Shown piece after piece: positions 4,840-44,182 of a DNA stretch of 64,000 nucleotides; position 1 is the first letter of the stretch; each line of letters starts with the position of its first letter. The notes beneath the pieces are model-generated. The model worked only from the letters and a program-made list of their open reading frames with translations, did not search any database and was not told where the DNA came from. The stretch comes from Caulifigura coniformis. GTDB taxonomy: Bacteria > Planctomycetota > Planctomycetia > Planctomycetales > Planctomycetaceae. The translations under genes and the position numbers were made by a program. The stretch lies in assembly GCF_007745175.1 (NCBI RefSeq), contig NZ_CP036271.1, forward strand, positions 2,988,314 through 3,052,313, read 5' to 3'.

Positions 4840-6039
4840 ATGACGCGCGCAGATTTGGACGCCTCGGAGTGGGCCGAACATTGGCCCCAGATCCCGGGCG
4901 TCATCTATCTCAATCACGGCTCCTTCGGCCGGGCCCCCAGGGCCGTCCTCGATGCCCAGAAGTCGTGGACGGCGAAGCTCCAGCAGAACCCCGTCGACTT
5001 CTTCACGCGGCAGCTCGACAGGCTGCTCGATTCGGCGGCCGACAAAATGTCTCGGTTCGTCGGCTGTAAGTCGGGCGACCTGGTGTTCGTGCCCAACGCC
5101 ACCGTGGCGATGAACATTGTCGCGGCCAACGTCCAGCTCGATTCGGGCGACGAGGTGTTGCTGAACGACCATGAATACGGGGCCGTCTGCCGCATCTGGA
5201 GAACGCGCTGCCAGCAGGCCGGCGCAAAGCTCGTCGTCGCCCGCCTGCCCGATCCGCTCACTTCCAGAGAACAGATCATCGAAGCGATTTTCGCAGCCGT
5301 GACCGAGCGGACGCGGCTGATCGTCGTCAGCCATGTGACTTCCCCGACCGCGATTGTGTTTCCCGTTGAGGAGATCTGTGCCCGGGCGCGGGCGCTCGGA
5401 ATCCGGGTCTGCATCGACGGTCCGCACGCCCTCGCCATGCGGCCCATCAATCTCGAGATGCTCGGCTGCGACTTTTACTGCGTCAGCTGCCACAAGTGGC
5501 TCGCGGCCGGTATCGGGAGTGGCTGGCTGTATGTCCGCGGCGGCCTCAAAAACCATCTGCACCCGACGACGCTCAGTTGGGGACGCAGCCTCAGCGGCCG
5601 CCCGGCGACCTGGAAGGATGAATTTCATTGGCCCGGCACTTTCGATCCCGCGGCCTATCTCTCCACGACCGCCGCGATCGAGTTTCTGTCGATGGTCGGC
5701 CTCGAGGCATTCCGCTCAACGACCCACGCCCTCGCCCGCGAAACGCGGGCCCGCCTGCTTGCCGAACTGGACGGCGTTGCGCTCTCGCCGGACGGCCCCG
5801 ACTGGTACGGCTCGATGGTCACTGTCCGGCTGCCGTGGCTGCGAACGCGCGATTCGGGAGTCCCCATCAATCACCCGCTCCAGGCAGCGCTCTGGGAGCA
5901 GTTCCATATCGAGGTCCCGGTCGTGGAATTGAATGGCCACGCCCACCTGCGAGTCTCCTGTCATCTCTATACGAGGGCCGGCGACATCGAGGCGCTGATG
6001 GCCGCGCTCAGGCAGCTGCGTCCCTCGCATTCGCACTGA
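4840..6039 (+). CDS. Class V PLP-dependent aminotransferase-like protein (isopenicillin N epimerase type)
   Basis: A 399-residue fold-type I PLP enzyme. It opens with the typical IYLNHGSFGRAP substrate loop. Asp193 in CIDGPHA would contact the PLP ring nitrogen, and Lys219 in SCHKWLAAGIGSG is the expected Schiff-base lysine. The sequence matches the cysteine desulfurase / isopenicillin-N epimerase branch, but nothing shows the actual substrate, and sulfur transfer is not supported by a neighbouring cluster. The ATG at 4840 is preferred; a TTG at 4825 would start inside the preceding terminator. Its last 32 bp overlap the 3' end of the convergent deacetylase gene. Confidence 0.88.
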   Translation: MTRADLDASEWAEHWPQIPGVIYLNHGSFGRAPRAVLDAQKSWTAKLQQNPVDFFTRQLDRLLDSAADKMSRFVGCKSGDLVFVPNATVAMNIVAANVQLDSGDEVLLNDHEYGAVCRIWRTRCQQAGAKLVVARLPDPLTSREQIIEAIFAAVTERTRLIVVSHVTSPTAIVFPVEEICARARALGIRVCIDGPHALAMRPINLEMLGCDFYCVSCHKWLAAGIGSGWLYVRGGLKNHLHPTTLSWGRSLSGRPATWKDEFHWPGTFDPAAYLSTTAAIEFLSMVGLEAFRSTTHALARETRARLLAELDGVALSPDGPDWYGSMVTVRLPWLRTRDSGVPINHPLQAALWEQFHIEVPVVELNGHAHLRVSCHLYTRAGDIEALMAALRQLRPSHSH

Positions 6040-6881: not shown

Positions 6882-7721
6882 CTAGTTGCAGGCGGCCAGC
6901 ATCTGACGGGCCGACGCCAGCAGTTCTTCCACCGCCAGTCGCTCCTCGGGGAGCAGGTGGGACACCTGGCCGCGGAATAGATCGATGACGCGCCCTGGGC
7001 GGCCGAGCATCAGCGAAACGGAGGCGAGGTCGCGGCGATCGATGAAAGACGAAGGGCGGAGCGCCAGAAGCCTCCGCAGCACACGTTCCGCGCCGAGCCA
7101 GTTGTCTTTTCGAAGGTGCAGCGTTTTGAGGTTGTTGAGCATCCTCAGAACGATCGTCCGGGGGGGCGCCGTCTGCAGCGTCGGCCGGAGATCCTGGGCC
7201 GAAAGGCCGGACACCCCGCCCAGCCATTCGATGCATTCCATTTCGGACATGATCCGTCCGCCGCCATAGGCGTCGACGAACAACGGCCCCTCGTCGCTTT
7301 CATAGCGGCAGAGGAAATGGGCCGGCGCGGCCACGCCGCTGATCGGCAGCCCCAACTGTTCTCCAACGGCGATGTAGATCAGCGAGAGGGAGATCGGAAT
7401 TCCCCGCCGAGTCTCGACCACCCGGTCGAGGTAACTCGAGTCGGCTGCGTCAAAGCAGGAAGCCGACCCTGAGAATCCATAGGTCCCGGCAATGACGTTG
7501 CAGATCGCCTTCAGCGTCTCAGCGTCATTCCGGTGTTTGACGATCGCCCCGCGGGCGTCGTCGGCGATGGCGGCGAGTCGAAGCTGGGTGGTCTGGAAAT
7601 CGAGCGAGGGACGGGCGTCTCTCGCGATTTCGAGCGCGGCCTGCGTCATCGAAACCGAACGCTGGAATCCGATCAACTTCGTGAACTCGACGTCGTCTTC
7701 GAAGTGGCAGAGCGGTGGCAT
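6882..7721 (-). CDS. SirB1-type protein (transglutaminase-like plus TPR)
   Basis: A 279-residue protein. The segment at ~95-140 (SYLDRVVETRRGIPISLSLI followed by an AHFLCRY stretch) is characteristic of the SirB1/Transglut_core2 family. The C-terminal third (LNNLKTLHLRKDNWLGAERV) is helical and TPR-like. Members often lack clear evidence of enzyme activity and their role is poorly known. It is co-directional with, and probably co-transcribed with, the deacetylase downstream. Confidence 0.85.
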   Translation of the reverse strand: MPPLCHFEDDVEFTKLIGFQRSVSMTQAALEIARDARPSLDFQTTQLRLAAIADDARGAIVKHRNDAETLKAICNVIAGTYGFSGSASCFDAADSSYLDRVVETRRGIPISLSLIYIAVGEQLGLPISGVAAPAHFLCRYESDEGPLFVDAYGGGRIMSEMECIEWLGGVSGLSAQDLRPTLQTAPPRTIVLRMLNNLKTLHLRKDNWLGAERVLRRLLALRPSSFIDRRDLASVSLMLGRPGRVIDLFRGQVSHLLPEERLAVEELLASARQMLAACN

Positions 7722-39685: not shown

Positions 39686-42600
39686 TCAGGACGGAGTCGC
39701 CGCCGGGGCCGCTTCGGTCGCGTGGGTGTCGCGATGTCCGCTCTTGCCGCTGGCGGCGAGTTCCAGGGCCATCTTCTTGATGGCGGCCAGATCGAGCTTC
39801 CCGGTCCCGAGGACCGGGATCGTTTCCACCTTGTAGAACGAATCGGTCGACGGCAGCCAGAGATTCGGCAAGCCAGTGGCGGACAGGTCCTTGACCAGTT
39901 GCGACGAAGGCTTGGCGAGTTCCGTATACAGCACGATCAGCCGCTCGCCGCGCGATGGATCAGGAGCCGAACTGATCGCGATCCGCGGCCCGGTTTCTTC
40001 TTCCTGTGACGACGGAGACAGCCGGTTCAGCTCCTCCTCGATCCGGATGTGCGGCACCATTTCGCCGCCGATCTTTGAGAACCGGCTCTGCCGTCCGGTG
40101 ATATGCACGAAGCCTTCCTCGTCAATCTTCGCAAAGTCCCCGCTGGCGTACCAACCATCGCGAATCACTTCGGCCGTCTTCTGGGGATCTCCGAGATATC
40201 CCTTCATGATGTTCGGGCCTTTGACGAGCAGCAGTCCCTCGGTGTTGACTCCCAGGTCAGCCCAGGTTTCGGGGGAAACGACTTTGACCGCGCAGCCCGG
40301 GATGGCCCGGCCGACCGTGCCGAGCTTGTTCGTCTTGTACATGGCATCCCGCGCGAGGTGGTCGGGAATGTTCACCGCCGCAACCGGCGACATCTCGGTC
40401 GTTCCGTATCCCTCGCTGGGGTAGAAGCCGAACTTCGTGTTGAACTCCTCGGCCAGGTCCATCGGCAGCTTCTCCGCCCCGGTGACGACCAGGTGCAGTT
40501 TGGAGAATTGCTCCTTCGTGCAGCGTTTCACGTAGTTCCTGAGGAAGGTCGGCGCGGCGAGAATGATGCTCACGCCGTATTTCTCGGCCAGCGTGCCGAC
40601 GGTCTTCGCGTCGAGCGGGTTGAAGTGGTAGCACGACCGGGCGTCGAAGCAGAGCGGCAGCCAGAGCGTCGCCGTGTAACCGAAGGAGTGGAAGAACGGC
40701 AGAATTCCCAGCAGACAGTCGGACGGCTTGAGCTGCAGCAACTGGTCGACGGCCTGAACGTTCGACCCGATGTTGGCCTGCGTCAGCATCACTCCCTTGG
40801 GATCGCCGGTCGATCCCGACGTGAAGACGATCGTCAGCAGGTCGTCAGGCTGGACGCGCGTGAGCCCCAGCAGGCGTTCGAGGACCACGATGGGCGTGGC
40901 GAACGCGTGCATTGCGGCCTTCGCCTTGTCGAGCCCGGTGATCTGCTCCTTGATGTCTTCGAGAAACACCCATTCCGCTCCTTCGAGGGCGACGGGTCTT
41001 TTCTCGAGGAACCGGCGACTGGTGAGGACGTGCTTCAGTCCCGCTTTCCGGACGCAGTAGTTGATGACGCTGTCCGCCATCGTGTAGTTCAGGTTCACGG
41101 TCGTCCGGCAATCGAGCGTGACCGCGAGGTTCGCCAGGCAGCCGCCGACGGAGGGGGGCAGCAGGATCCCGACGTTCTGTTCGTCGGGCGCGAAGACCGT
41201 CCGGCGCAGCACCGATCGGAGGGCGAGCGCCCCGGCGAGGGTGCGGCCTCCCGTCAGTTCGACTCCCGCGGAGTCGGCGATCTTCAGGCGGTTCCGGCCC
41301 CGCCGCGCCTGGCGGACGAACTTTCGGGCCACTGTCAGTTCCGTCGAGCGCGCCATCTCGTTTGCCTCCACCCCGAGAAGTTCGACTGCCTGCCTTACCT
41401 GGTTCACGTCATCGGCTTGCGCGATCGGTTTACCAAAATGAATTGAGATGGGATACGGCCATTGCGCAGGCTTCTTCCAGAAGAACTTCCCGCCGCGGAA
41501 GCTGAACACGCTTCCCCACAGCCCGTGAAGATAGACCGGGATGATCGGGGCCGCGGTGCCGTCCACAATCCGCATCAGTCCTCGCTGGAAGGGCTGCAAC
41601 TGGCCGGTGCGGGTCAGCGCTCCTTCGGCGAAGATGCACACGACTTCGCCGCGCAAAACAGCCTCCCGGGCCTCGTTCAGCGCCGCGAGCACCGCCCTTC
41701 CGCCGCTGCCCGCCTTGATCGGGATAATGCCCCCTCTCTGGCAGAACCACCGCAGGAACGGTTTGTTCACATAGTCGGCATACATGATGAAACGGACGAA
41801 CCGCGACGAACTCACCAGCAGCAGGATGCCGTCGATCCACGACACGTGATTCGCGACCAGCAGGGCGCCTCCGCGTTCGGGAATGTTCTCACGGCCGTAA
41901 ACCTTCAGGCGGTACATCACCCGGCTGAGGACGTAGAACAGGAAACGGGCCAGGAATTCCGGCAGCAGCAGCACGACGTAGACGACGATCGGAATCGTTC
42001 CCAGCCCGGCCAGCATGAAGATCGTGGCCGGCGGAAGGTTCAGGACTCCGTGCAGCAACTGGAACAGCCCGCACGACACGAGGATCAGCGAGAACGAAAC
42101 GAAGTTCGAGCCAGCCAGAACGGTTCCCCGGTTGGAGTCGTCGCTGCGGTATTGCAGGTAGGCCTCGAGAGGAATGTCGAAGAGCGCCGCGAAGCCCCCG
42201 AGACAGAACAGCATCGTGCACACGCCGTAGAACGCCGGCTGACTCGTCGCGGCGAGCGAGACGTCGACAAACCTGCTCGCGATGAACACGCCCAGGGCAC
42301 TCGCGCTGATGCCGAAGGCCCCGAGCGGAACCAGTCCCAGTTCGACTTTCCCCTGCGACCAGATTCCCGCCAGCACACTCCCGACACCCATGCCGGCGAC
42401 GAGCACGGCCATCAGAATCCCGACGTCTTCCTTGGGGAGGTGCAGTCCTTCGTTTCCGAACGGGTCGGTATTGAGCTGCGCGAGCGAAGCAAGCATCCAG
42501 AAGAATCCGATGCCAAGCGCGCACCGCAGCAGCCGCACGTCGCGGAACAGCACCTGGATCGCCGGCCACGTTTCGGTGACCGGATTCCAGGCAATGCGTT

Positions 42601-43231
42601 TCCCGGGGCTTGCCGCTCCAGCCGTACGGACAAAGAGACTGGTCAGGGTTCCGGCGATCGCGGTTCCGATCAGCGCAGCGGCGGGGATCCACAACCCTGC
42701 CAGCGTCGGGCCGGCGTCGAGCACTGGCCCGGCGACACCATACAGCTTGTAGCCAGCCACTGTTCCCAGCGCCGATCCGGTGACCGTCGCCAGGCCAAGC
42801 AGGCCGTTCCCCTGCGAAAGTGATTCGGGTTTGAGAATCTCGGGCAGGGCTCCGAACTTTGCCGGCCCGAACAGCGCGCTCTGCGCGCCGAGCAGGAACA
42901 CGATTGCGAACAGCAGCCAGAGCTGCGACGTCGCGATTGCGAGGATGCCTAACGCCGTGAGCACAATCTCGGCGACCTTACACCGCACGATGACCGCCTG
43001 TTTCGGAAGGCGATCGGCCAACGAACCTGAGAGCGGCGCGAGCAGCAGGTAAGGGATGGTGAACAGCACCCCGCCCAGAACCAGCGCCAGCGTGGGATCC
43101 ATCGTCCGTTGGCCAATTGGCACAGCCAGCCAGCGGAACATGTTGTCGTTGAACGCACCCAGAAACTGGGTAGCCGTCAGCCCGAGGAAGCTGGCCGAAC
43201 GGATCGAGCGTGGCGTCGCGGGGTGGGACAT
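39686..43231 (-). CDS. Fused lysophospholipid transporter / acyltransferase / acyl-ACP synthetase
   Basis: 1181 residues, three parts. Residues ~10-430 form a 12-helix MFS transporter of the LplT type (LTATQFLGAFNDNMFRWLAV). Residues ~440-625 are a PlsC acyltransferase with NHVSWIDG (His462, Asp467) and EGALTRTG (536-543). Residues ~660-1170 are an AMP-forming acyl synthetase with FTSGSTGDPKG (803-813), GYGTTEMSP and the ASGDFAKIDEEGFVHITGRQ hinge. In E. coli LplT and the bifunctional Aas are separate neighbouring genes; here all three activities are on one chain. The expected role is re-import and re-acylation of lysophospholipids at the inner membrane. Confidence 0.92.
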   Translation of the reverse strand: MSHPATPRSIRSASFLGLTATQFLGAFNDNMFRWLAVPIGQRTMDPTLALVLGGVLFTIPYLLLAPLSGSLADRLPKQAVIVRCKVAEIVLTALGILAIATSQLWLLFAIVFLLGAQSALFGPAKFGALPEILKPESLSQGNGLLGLATVTGSALGTVAGYKLYGVAGPVLDAGPTLAGLWIPAAALIGTAIAGTLTSLFVRTAGAASPGKRIAWNPVTETWPAIQVLFRDVRLLRCALGIGFFWMLASLAQLNTDPFGNEGLHLPKEDVGILMAVLVAGMGVGSVLAGIWSQGKVELGLVPLGAFGISASALGVFIASRFVDVSLAATSQPAFYGVCTMLFCLGGFAALFDIPLEAYLQYRSDDSNRGTVLAGSNFVSFSLILVSCGLFQLLHGVLNLPPATIFMLAGLGTIPIVVYVVLLLPEFLARFLFYVLSRVMYRLKVYGRENIPERGGALLVANHVSWIDGILLLVSSSRFVRFIMYADYVNKPFLRWFCQRGGIIPIKAGSGGRAVLAALNEAREAVLRGEVVCIFAEGALTRTGQLQPFQRGLMRIVDGTAAPIIPVYLHGLWGSVFSFRGGKFFWKKPAQWPYPISIHFGKPIAQADDVNQVRQAVELLGVEANEMARSTELTVARKFVRQARRGRNRLKIADSAGVELTGGRTLAGALALRSVLRRTVFAPDEQNVGILLPPSVGGCLANLAVTLDCRTTVNLNYTMADSVINYCVRKAGLKHVLTSRRFLEKRPVALEGAEWVFLEDIKEQITGLDKAKAAMHAFATPIVVLERLLGLTRVQPDDLLTIVFTSGSTGDPKGVMLTQANIGSNVQAVDQLLQLKPSDCLLGILPFFHSFGYTATLWLPLCFDARSCYHFNPLDAKTVGTLAEKYGVSIILAAPTFLRNYVKRCTKEQFSKLHLVVTGAEKLPMDLAEEFNTKFGFYPSEGYGTTEMSPVAAVNIPDHLARDAMYKTNKLGTVGRAIPGCAVKVVSPETWADLGVNTEGLLLVKGPNIMKGYLGDPQKTAEVIRDGWYASGDFAKIDEEGFVHITGRQSRFSKIGGEMVPHIRIEEELNRLSPSSQEEETGPRIAISSAPDPSRGERLIVLYTELAKPSSQLVKDLSATGLPNLWLPSTDSFYKVETIPVLGTGKLDLAAIKKMALELAASGKSGHRDTHATEAAPAATPS

Positions 43232-43324
43232 TCAGGTTCGCCAGGGCAATCAGACAGTTGAAAACACCGGACGACAGGCGTCACGACACGGAGAATATCA
43301 CGTCGAAAGCCCGTCTTGCCCCGT

Positions 43325-43590
43325 TGTGCAAAATCAACGCTGCCTGCGAAACGAGGCATGGCAGCACCGCTGTGTCGCATTTTGCACAGGCAATTTGAAG
43401 CGCTGCGTCTCTCGCGACAGCCGACCGGCTTTGGATTTCACTGAATTTCGTGCAACGCGTCGAAACGTTCCTCGCAGTTGCGCGATGCGCCGATATGTTT
43501 CCTGTAGAGCCTTGAGCGGCGAGCGTTGGCCCGCACTTGCTGCTCGGCCTAAAGCGTCCTGGATGACTCGCTCATCCAGGACGTTTTTTC
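43325..43590 (+). ncRNA. Candidate structured small RNA
   Basis: The intergenic stretch 43232-43651 has no convincing gene. It contains a nested hairpin: TGTGCAAAAT (43325-43334) pairs with ATTTTGCACA (43379-43388), and inside it GCTGCCTGC (43339-43347) pairs with GCATGGCAGC apart from one bulged T (43356-43365). A strong rightward terminator ends at 43590. The neighbouring genes on both sides run leftward, so the terminator needs its own rightward transcript. No match to 6S, tmRNA, SRP RNA or RNase P is recognised. Confidence 0.35.
43555..43590 (+). terminator. Strong rightward terminator without an upstream coding gene
   Basis: A 12-bp perfect stem (CGTCCTGGATGA / TCATCCAGGACG), CTCGC loop, then TTTTTTC. 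Confidence 0.9.
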
Positions 43591-43651
43591 TTTTCCGGCT
43601 CCTTTTCTGGGGCCCCCCGAAGGTTGCCGCTCCGCGATTCGGCGTCCGGTT

Positions 43652-44041
43652 TCAGCTGGCCGACCTTTGAGCCGCATCCTGCTCCCCGGCTGCCTGGAGA
43701 CCGGCAGGGCTCACTCCGGAAATCGACGCAATGCACGGAACACCGAGGCCGAAGCCTTTCAGCGGATTGCTCCAGATCTGGCTGCCCGTTGCCGGATCGA
43801 GGCAGTACGTATAACCCTGCACCGATGCGATCAGCCGATCGGTGTCGTAGAGCAGCACGACGAACCCGGCCCCCTGAGGCGACTTCCAGGACCAGACCAG
43901 CTCGCCCGTGTCCCGGTGCAGCGCGCAGACGCGGCGGTTGAAGCCCACGAACACGAGGTCGGCCGGATCGACTGTCGGTGTCGCCTTCCCGGCCGATGAG
44001 CCGGATCCGCTGAGAAAACTGGAATCAAACGACTGGGACAT
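43652..44041 (-). CDS. Short PQQ-type beta-propeller-like protein
   Basis: 129 residues from the ATG at 44041, with GGAG upstream. It contains about two blade motifs of the PQQ-like repeat: VFVGFNRRVCALHRDTGELV with W, and ASVQGYTYCLDPATGSQIWS. A full propeller needs six to eight blades, so it must oligomerise, bind another protein or be a remnant. Ser/Gly-rich start, no signal peptide. Shares orientation with the gene upstream at 44242-44787 but is separated by a terminator. Confidence 0.72.
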   Translation of the reverse strand: MSQSFDSSFLSGSGSSAGKATPTVDPADLVFVGFNRRVCALHRDTGELVWSWKSPQGAGFVVLLYDTDRLIASVQGYTYCLDPATGSQIWSNPLKGFGLGVPCIASISGVSPAGLQAAGEQDAAQRSAS

Positions 44042-44182
44042 CGTGCGCTCCGCCTGTTCGATGAATCCTTGTTTCCGCGCCAGAACGCGGCTGAACTTGC
44101 CCGGGATCAAAGGAATCGCAGGTTCCCCACGACCCTGCAACGCCTCGGCCGACGACCGAATCAGGGCAACCGGAGACGCACG

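Follow-up and report, generated by a model that had tools for sequence, protein, structure and literature searches.

The Qrr small RNAs (sRNAs) of Vibrio, under sigma-54 and LuxO, are short and terminated and often present in several copies per genome; they act with Hfq, and their conserved core is longer than that of the RNA described below. GlmY and GlmZ of the Enterobacteriaceae are likewise sigma-54-controlled, with upstream activator sites, and are bound by RapZ. In Gram-positives, sRNAs of the RsaE type act independently of Hfq via a C-rich loop (UCCCC). The CsrA sponges CsrB and RsmZ feature repeated GGA loops. For planctomycetes, no such regulatory RNA was found in searches of open-access papers; a Rhodopirellula-1 motif is named in PMC2864571.

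Here a sRNA gene and its family are described from a window (that is, the whole stretch of 64,000 nucleotides analysed; G000:C1:2988314-3052313) of the Caulifigura coniformis genome (G000), a single contig of 6.76 Mb. An earlier note on this DNA had proposed a new rightward small RNA without recognising any known RNA family. In agreement with the latter, Rfam gave no family at gathering score in the gap that harbours the gene and, down to an E value of 5, two weak matches far below theirs. The sRNA family is apparently undescribed.

Results

The gene lies in the gap of 420 bp (43232-43651) to which the earlier note had pointed; both flanking genes are leftward, one being an aas-like fusion and the other a PQQ-like open reading frame (ORF) (Table 1). 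Mechanically called ORFs span the gap (for example, 43056-43670 on the + strand, 204 aa), and no supporting evidence was found for them. The proposed rightward terminator was recovered, with its stem at 43551-43587 and T6 at 43584-43589; a simple terminator scan was by itself not above chance (2 found versus 2.0 expected). The sequence from 43503 to 43594 folds at −48.8 kcal/mol versus a shuffle mean of −27.75 (z −6.26; reached by 0 of 200 shuffles). The heart of the RNA is a conserved hairpin adjoining the terminator, which had been overlooked, and the predicted RNA extends over about 43503-43592, not over 43325-43590 as first thought; its 5′ end is an estimate from homologous promoters (± several nt) and its 3′ end falls in or just past the T tract. 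A real sRNA gene of about 90 bases, consisting of one hairpin plus the terminator, is almost certainly present here, and its transcription is predicted from comparison among genomes. Elsewhere in the window, the bacterial small SRP RNA (RF00169) was located at 2885-2984 on the minus strand; in G000 as a whole, the 23S rRNA model was matched and the 16S rRNA model was not, possibly an effect of the search's first filter.

Table 1. Features of the sRNA locus and of the viral contig L314 (window positions unless stated)
Feature	Position	Strand	Evidence or remark
Small RNA gene (predicted)	43503..43592	+	Covariance model R1, 72.4 bits; fold z −6.26
Hairpin 1 (stem covarying, loop nearly invariant)	43505..43551	+	Fold; covariation on alignment A4 and loop-anchored ungapped comparison
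GGCCCGC in the loop, almost without variation; putative seed or recognition element	43528..43534	+	Column counts, 80 distinct copies
Intrinsic terminator, 13 modelled covarying pairs, then T6	43551..43589	+	Fold, covariation, terminator scan
Dyad YGNNGCA-WWW-TGCNNCR, imperfect, putative enhancer	43371..43391		14.4 bits; contains the right arm of the earlier note's hairpin
TGTGCAAAAT, left arm of the earlier note's repeat	43325..43334		At most a dyad half-site, below the 8-bit threshold
aas-like fusion	39686-43231	−	MFS, acyltransferase and AMP-binding domains
PQQ-like ORF	43652-44140	−	PQQ_2 domain
Hairpin copy on L314	7081-7114 (L314)		34 nt identical
Diverged second GCCCGC hairpin on L314	about 7470-7525 (L314)		Precedes the next gene

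A DNA search with 43260-43620 against 59 genomes (G000 included) returned a strong match in the only further genome from the genus (E 8e-22; positions 250-330 of the query, that is, 43509-43589; 89% identity) and short matches on one word in several others. Alignment of these matches revealed a compact gene, namely a hairpin with the loop core GCGTTGGCCCGCAC followed by a terminator and a T run; for 14 sequences RNAalifold predicted 25 pairs, 17 of them with double-sided changes. The covariance model R1, built from 14 aligned sequences, matched three good copies in G000: the window copy at 72.4 bits (G000:C1:3031817-3031909, that is, window 43504-43596) and two others at 45.3 and 36.0 bits, the next score being 20.4. 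Across the class, R1 matched 148 of 397 genomes (E<=0.1); the numerous low-scoring matches beyond the family probably reflect noise from terminators, and the loop core was absent from the four inspected (G108, G380, G064 and G345; 33.8-38.0 bits). An extended model of promoter plus RNA (R2; 66 sequences) matched 142 of the 170 genomes and 56 of the 58 genera of the window's family at E<=1e-5, including 111 of its 130 good-quality genomes; 19 of the 28 genomes without a match are good-quality ones. Among 392 genomes drawn from the phylum, nothing outside the family scored above 35 bits. The 18-base core occurs in 67 stretches, and the named records that carry it include Gimesia, Schlesneria and other Planctomycetaceae; hairpin plus terminator were not seen, on inspection by eye, in ~20 core stretches from other phyla, nor in at least one planctomycete record with the core (L115). 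Judged by sequence comparison, these loci make up an authentic and novel family of small RNAs of the sigma-54 type, present in nearly every genus of the window's family; the existence of the gene itself is near certain.

Two records hold single-hairpin variants, in which one long stem carries the usual apical loop (L076:460-550 and L119:5345-5445), and, by record names, each of these genomes also carries a normal copy (L086 and L080, respectively). Tandem copies were seen as well, with three within ~540 bp (L160:2971-3506) and two ~440 bp apart (L104:3479-4046).

Loop and promoter counts were taken from the first 112 R1 matches listed, from which 8 without the loop core (<=4 mismatches) were dropped, leaving 104 copies. 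Among the 8, G108, G380, G308, G064 and G345 read as terminator-only (two outside the family, with R1 scores of 38.0 and 37.6 bits), and G160:C139, G012:C497 and G061 appear to be members whose loop has diverged; low-scoring outside matches were not counted as members. In the 80 distinct copies, which were picked for a similar loop, three of the GGCCCGC columns are invariant (80/80) and four are at 78-79/80, while the loop's 5′ side is variable.

Stem covariation was assessed on an alignment of 87 chosen loci (A4), from which a tighter threshold had removed 3 reverse-strand matches, and by comparing ungapped copies anchored on the loop. For 89 distinct sequences, in an alignment fitted to the model, 91.0% of cells were paired versus 72.8% after shuffling, and the covariation score was 0.633 versus 0.270 shuffled and 0.07-0.16 slid; the number of pairs changing on both sides (23 of 25) was little above the shuffled mean of 18.7. 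In the loop-anchored comparison, which is not structure-fitted (80 copies), stem pairs −2, −3, −5, −6 and −7 beat 500 of 500 shuffles, and the remaining five of the ten were reached by 16-40 of 500. The proposal of a new rightward sRNA gene with its own terminator thus held, its stems being conserved and covarying in related genomes. Furthermore, G.U cells numbered 140 versus 26 A.C cells, and a T run of at least four was found in 89 of the 104 copies, which together fix the RNA strand as +. These data bear on whether the element merely terminates the leftward PQQ-like gene and encodes no separate RNA: the stem does fold on the minus strand as well, but T6 is restricted to the rightward side, hairpin 1 covaries by itself and the G.U excess agrees with the + strand, so that this reading is barely credible.

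A GG-N10-GC (−24/−12) site with at least 8 consensus matches was found 24-33 nt before the loop core in 97 of the 104 copies, versus 124 of 2080 shuffles, and rpoN is present in 56 of 59 genomes, G000 among them. The seven copies without the site are the window copy and its counterpart in the genus-mate (G001), a second copy in each of these genomes (G000:4894202 and G001:C45), G152 and G275, where GT replaces GC, and G007:C85. The fixed-distance −24/−12 element that defines sigma-54-dependent sRNAs is therefore a feature of the family and not of the window copy, whose best site scores −4.9 bits (97 true sites: median 17.2, minimum 8.3) and in which no sigma-70-like site was found. The third G000 copy (2047582) carries a strong sigma-54 site (16.8 bits) and, as rpoN is present, the genus still uses sigma-54.

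In both the window copy and that of the genus-mate, RNA and upstream dyad (see below) are kept and the −24/−12 element is absent, and the window copy is thus probably read from another promoter. It could instead be a decaying, unexpressed paralogue of an otherwise functional family, given that it has neither a sigma-54 nor a sigma-70-like site and that the genome has two other good copies; this is improbable, however, as the RNA is 89% identical to that of the genus-mate over 81 nt, in contrast to a poorly aligning spacer, and pairing in the terminator is preserved by a change from T-A to C-G. The preferred reading, another promoter at an active copy, would make the locus a natural case of promoter switching, in which one genus has kept RNA and enhancer dyad alike but lacks the sigma-54 element.

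Upstream of the copies, word counts picked CATTTTGC and GTGTTGCA, both of which resolve into one dyad of 17 bp, YGNNGCA-WWW-TGCNNCR. A total of 170 dyad sites of at least 8 bits were found. They precede the core by 140-199 nt in 130 cases, and at least two occur in 55 of 90 upstream regions. The fixed consensus, which was learned from the same sequences in which its occurrences were counted, occurred in 62 of 82 upstream regions when <=2 mismatches were allowed (4.5% of shuffles; 6 of 81 downstream regions) and in 38 of 82 at <=1 mismatch (0.24% of shuffles; 0 of 81 downstream regions). By this enrichment, and by the 14.4-bit site in the window, the family has sites resembling enhancers, some 80-200 bp before the start. 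The dyad is probably the enhancer of the activator, and sigma-54/enhancer control of the sRNA family is very likely.

In 8 genomes, exact dyads numbered 40 versus 8 for the reversed control, and a sRNA copy is closely preceded by one in 6 cases, none of these being in G000 or G019. When 20 of the 40 sites were inspected for a regulon, sigma-54 promoters showed no clear pattern. Some exact dyads (L283, L286, L290 (G000), L301 (G013), L299 (G077)) are near prepilin-like (FTLIELLVVIAI) genes or, in G077, ~0.9 kb before a flagellar-rod-like gene; a wider regulon is possible.

The dyad also accounts for part of the nested hairpin from which the earlier note had started its RNA. The inverted repeat, TGTGCAAAAT (43325) and ATTTTGCACA (43379), is real, and as RNA it folds moderately better than shuffles, with z −2.35 on both strands (reached by 2 of 200 shuffles on + and 6 of 200 on −), all of which would suit a single 266-nt RNA including a 5′ hairpin at 43325-43390. 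Nevertheless, a search with <=2 mismatches per arm did not find the repeat ahead of the genus-mate's copy, where aas and the sRNA itself align and the spacer between them aligns poorly; its right arm lies within the recurrent dyad; the hairpin is not conserved as RNA; and homologous promoters place the start near 43503, ~178 nt to the right of 43325. A 266-nt RNA is accordingly highly improbable: gap, terminator and inverted repeat stood, and the single RNA joining the 5′ hairpin to the terminator did not. Since the ATTTTGCACA arm is part of the dyad, putative operator DNA outside the RNA is the best reading of this hairpin.

The genes around the copies were compared with crude longest-ORF calls, which define both ORFs and clusters. 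The commonest setting is a leftward panB, the sRNA and a trxB-like gene; in G035 the sRNA gene is inverted between the two. Across 97 loci, the next ORF is trxB-like in 20 and an MFS gene in 12, and the downstream ORF is co-directional in 74 and convergent in 23, in 24 and 21 clusters, respectively, with a median gap of 192 nt to a co-directional start. If the RNA were a cis-acting leader or attenuator for the downstream gene, the excess of co-directional ORFs, the trxB-like and MFS clusters and an activator gene downstream at 7 loci would fit; yet 23 loci are convergent, as is the window copy, the ORFs are scattered over many clusters at that gap, the gene is inverted in G035, the terminator is strong, and a conserved same-direction downstream gene was not found among these loci. 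A leader is thus very improbable. In L007, a 6S RNA gene (RF00013; 1705-1909) is located ~110 nt downstream of the sRNA.

The activator gene found directly downstream of the copy in 7 loci encodes a FHA-GAF-AAA-Fis sigma-54 activator (domains checked in one). Each of the 12 genomes searched has a best match to this protein, at 524-1167 bits and with coverage of 82-98%; a second match in G016 reached 456 bits and all others were <=291, and the G000 protein (1418053) has the same domain set. The dyad occurs with <=2 mismatches upstream of the activator gene in 5 of 12 genomes, versus 1 site in ~21,000 coding positions. Being encoded next to some copies and strongly matched in every one of the 12 genomes, this protein would be the likeliest activator. 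Its assignment as regulator of the sRNA, based on neighbourhood and small counts, is a tentative one, its odds being reduced by 3 of the 12 genomes in which the match covers just 82-85% of the protein.

Hfq was not found in any of 40 genomes, 25 of them from the window's family. A nearly invariant 7-nt loop, a freely varying stem, multiple copies in some species and sigma-54 promoters together suggest a trans-acting RNA with the loop as seed. The 11-mer complementary to the loop was not enriched in 12 genomes (97 sites, sRNA copies included, versus 108 for the reversed control), and among 30 of the 97 sites inspected, 5 were near a crude ORF start, one being a sRNA copy itself, such that no base-pairing target was supported. 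In the 5872-base 23S locus (the match plus 1500-base flanks), the best ungapped complementary run is 12 with G.U, at position 4890 and outside the 23S match, and the best run inside the match is 10; no significance is attached to either.

A protein-binding or decoy RNA, whose loop would be recognised by an RNA-binding protein, is a serious if rather unlikely rival. A nearly invariant loop on a stem free to vary would suit it, as would the lack of an enriched complement, the tandem copies in L104 and L160 and a bare hairpin on a viral contig (see below), but a single motif per RNA makes a poor sponge, and the loop has no GGA and is hence not CsrA-like. A CsrA sponge was itself considered on the conserved loop and rejected, GGCCCGC occurring once per RNA with no repeated GGA. 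Action of the loop by base pairing rather than protein binding is somewhat favoured.

Eight IMG/VR stretches contain the core word. One of them, L314 (12.9 kb examined), belongs to a contig of 59 kb that also encodes an integrase, and over 34 nt it is identical to the hairpin as found in the window's genus; of the compared loci with the exact 17-base core, none but those of G000 and G001 have all 34 nt. A small phage ORF (start uncertain) follows shortly after the phage copy, which is closed by the phage's own stem. By folding, the hairpin was absent from the other 7 of the 8 stretches, and the phage leader word had no match when viral contigs were scanned for it. An attachment site is unlikely, with the integrase gene 3.6 kb away and the identity ending before the terminator; the integrase gene adjoins what reads like a tRNA 3′ end, and ARAGORN reported no tRNA. 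Candidate readings of the phage hairpin are a mimic, a decoy or a cis element.

Discussion

The model as a whole, regarded as probable, is that of an RNA that acts in trans and without Hfq through a seed in its loop and is controlled by a FHA-GAF sigma-54 activator, the locus at 43503-43592 being one of three copies in G000 of a family-wide sRNA. The activator, for which the FHA-GAF-AAA-Fis protein is the likeliest candidate, would bind the dyad and fire the promoter; a short stable RNA would then be released, and its loop would pair with GCGGGCC-type sites in mRNAs without Hfq. At the window copy, another promoter would take the place of the lost −24/−12 element. A more far-reaching version is doubtful: a family-wide, Hfq-free sigma-54 RNA regulon built of one activator, the dyad and the multi-copy RNA, with the promoter moved in one genus and a phage-captured hairpin that would plug into the circuit or jam it.

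Planctomycetes have an unusual cell biology, and Hfq was undetected in the 40 genomes checked; the sRNA may be a core regulator in such bacteria. With its nearly invariant loop, mapped promoter and candidate activator, it makes RNA-based control in planctomycetes directly testable.

Among known systems, 6S RNA (RF00013) is also small and adjoins a sRNA copy in L007, but it was rejected as an identity, since its model had no match in the window and the sRNA is about half its length with another architecture. The Qrr, GlmY and GlmZ models, which are presumably present in the Rfam library, matched neither the window nor 13 relatives, where only a separate 6S RNA was found. The sRNA resembles Qrr of Vibrio in being short, terminated, sigma-54-dependent and often multi-copy, but differs in its 7-nt loop, its phylum, the lack of a Rfam match and the absence of a detected Hfq, the host factor of Hfq-class sRNAs having been found in 0 of 40 genomes. 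With GlmY/GlmZ it shares sigma-54 control with upstream activator sites, yet those RNAs are longer and RapZ-bound, and the sRNA here has no Rfam match. With the C-rich-loop sRNAs of the RsaE type it shares a GC-rich hairpin loop and Hfq-independence, as proposed here, but the loop there is UCCCC, whereas here it is GGCCCGC, combined with a sigma-54 promoter.
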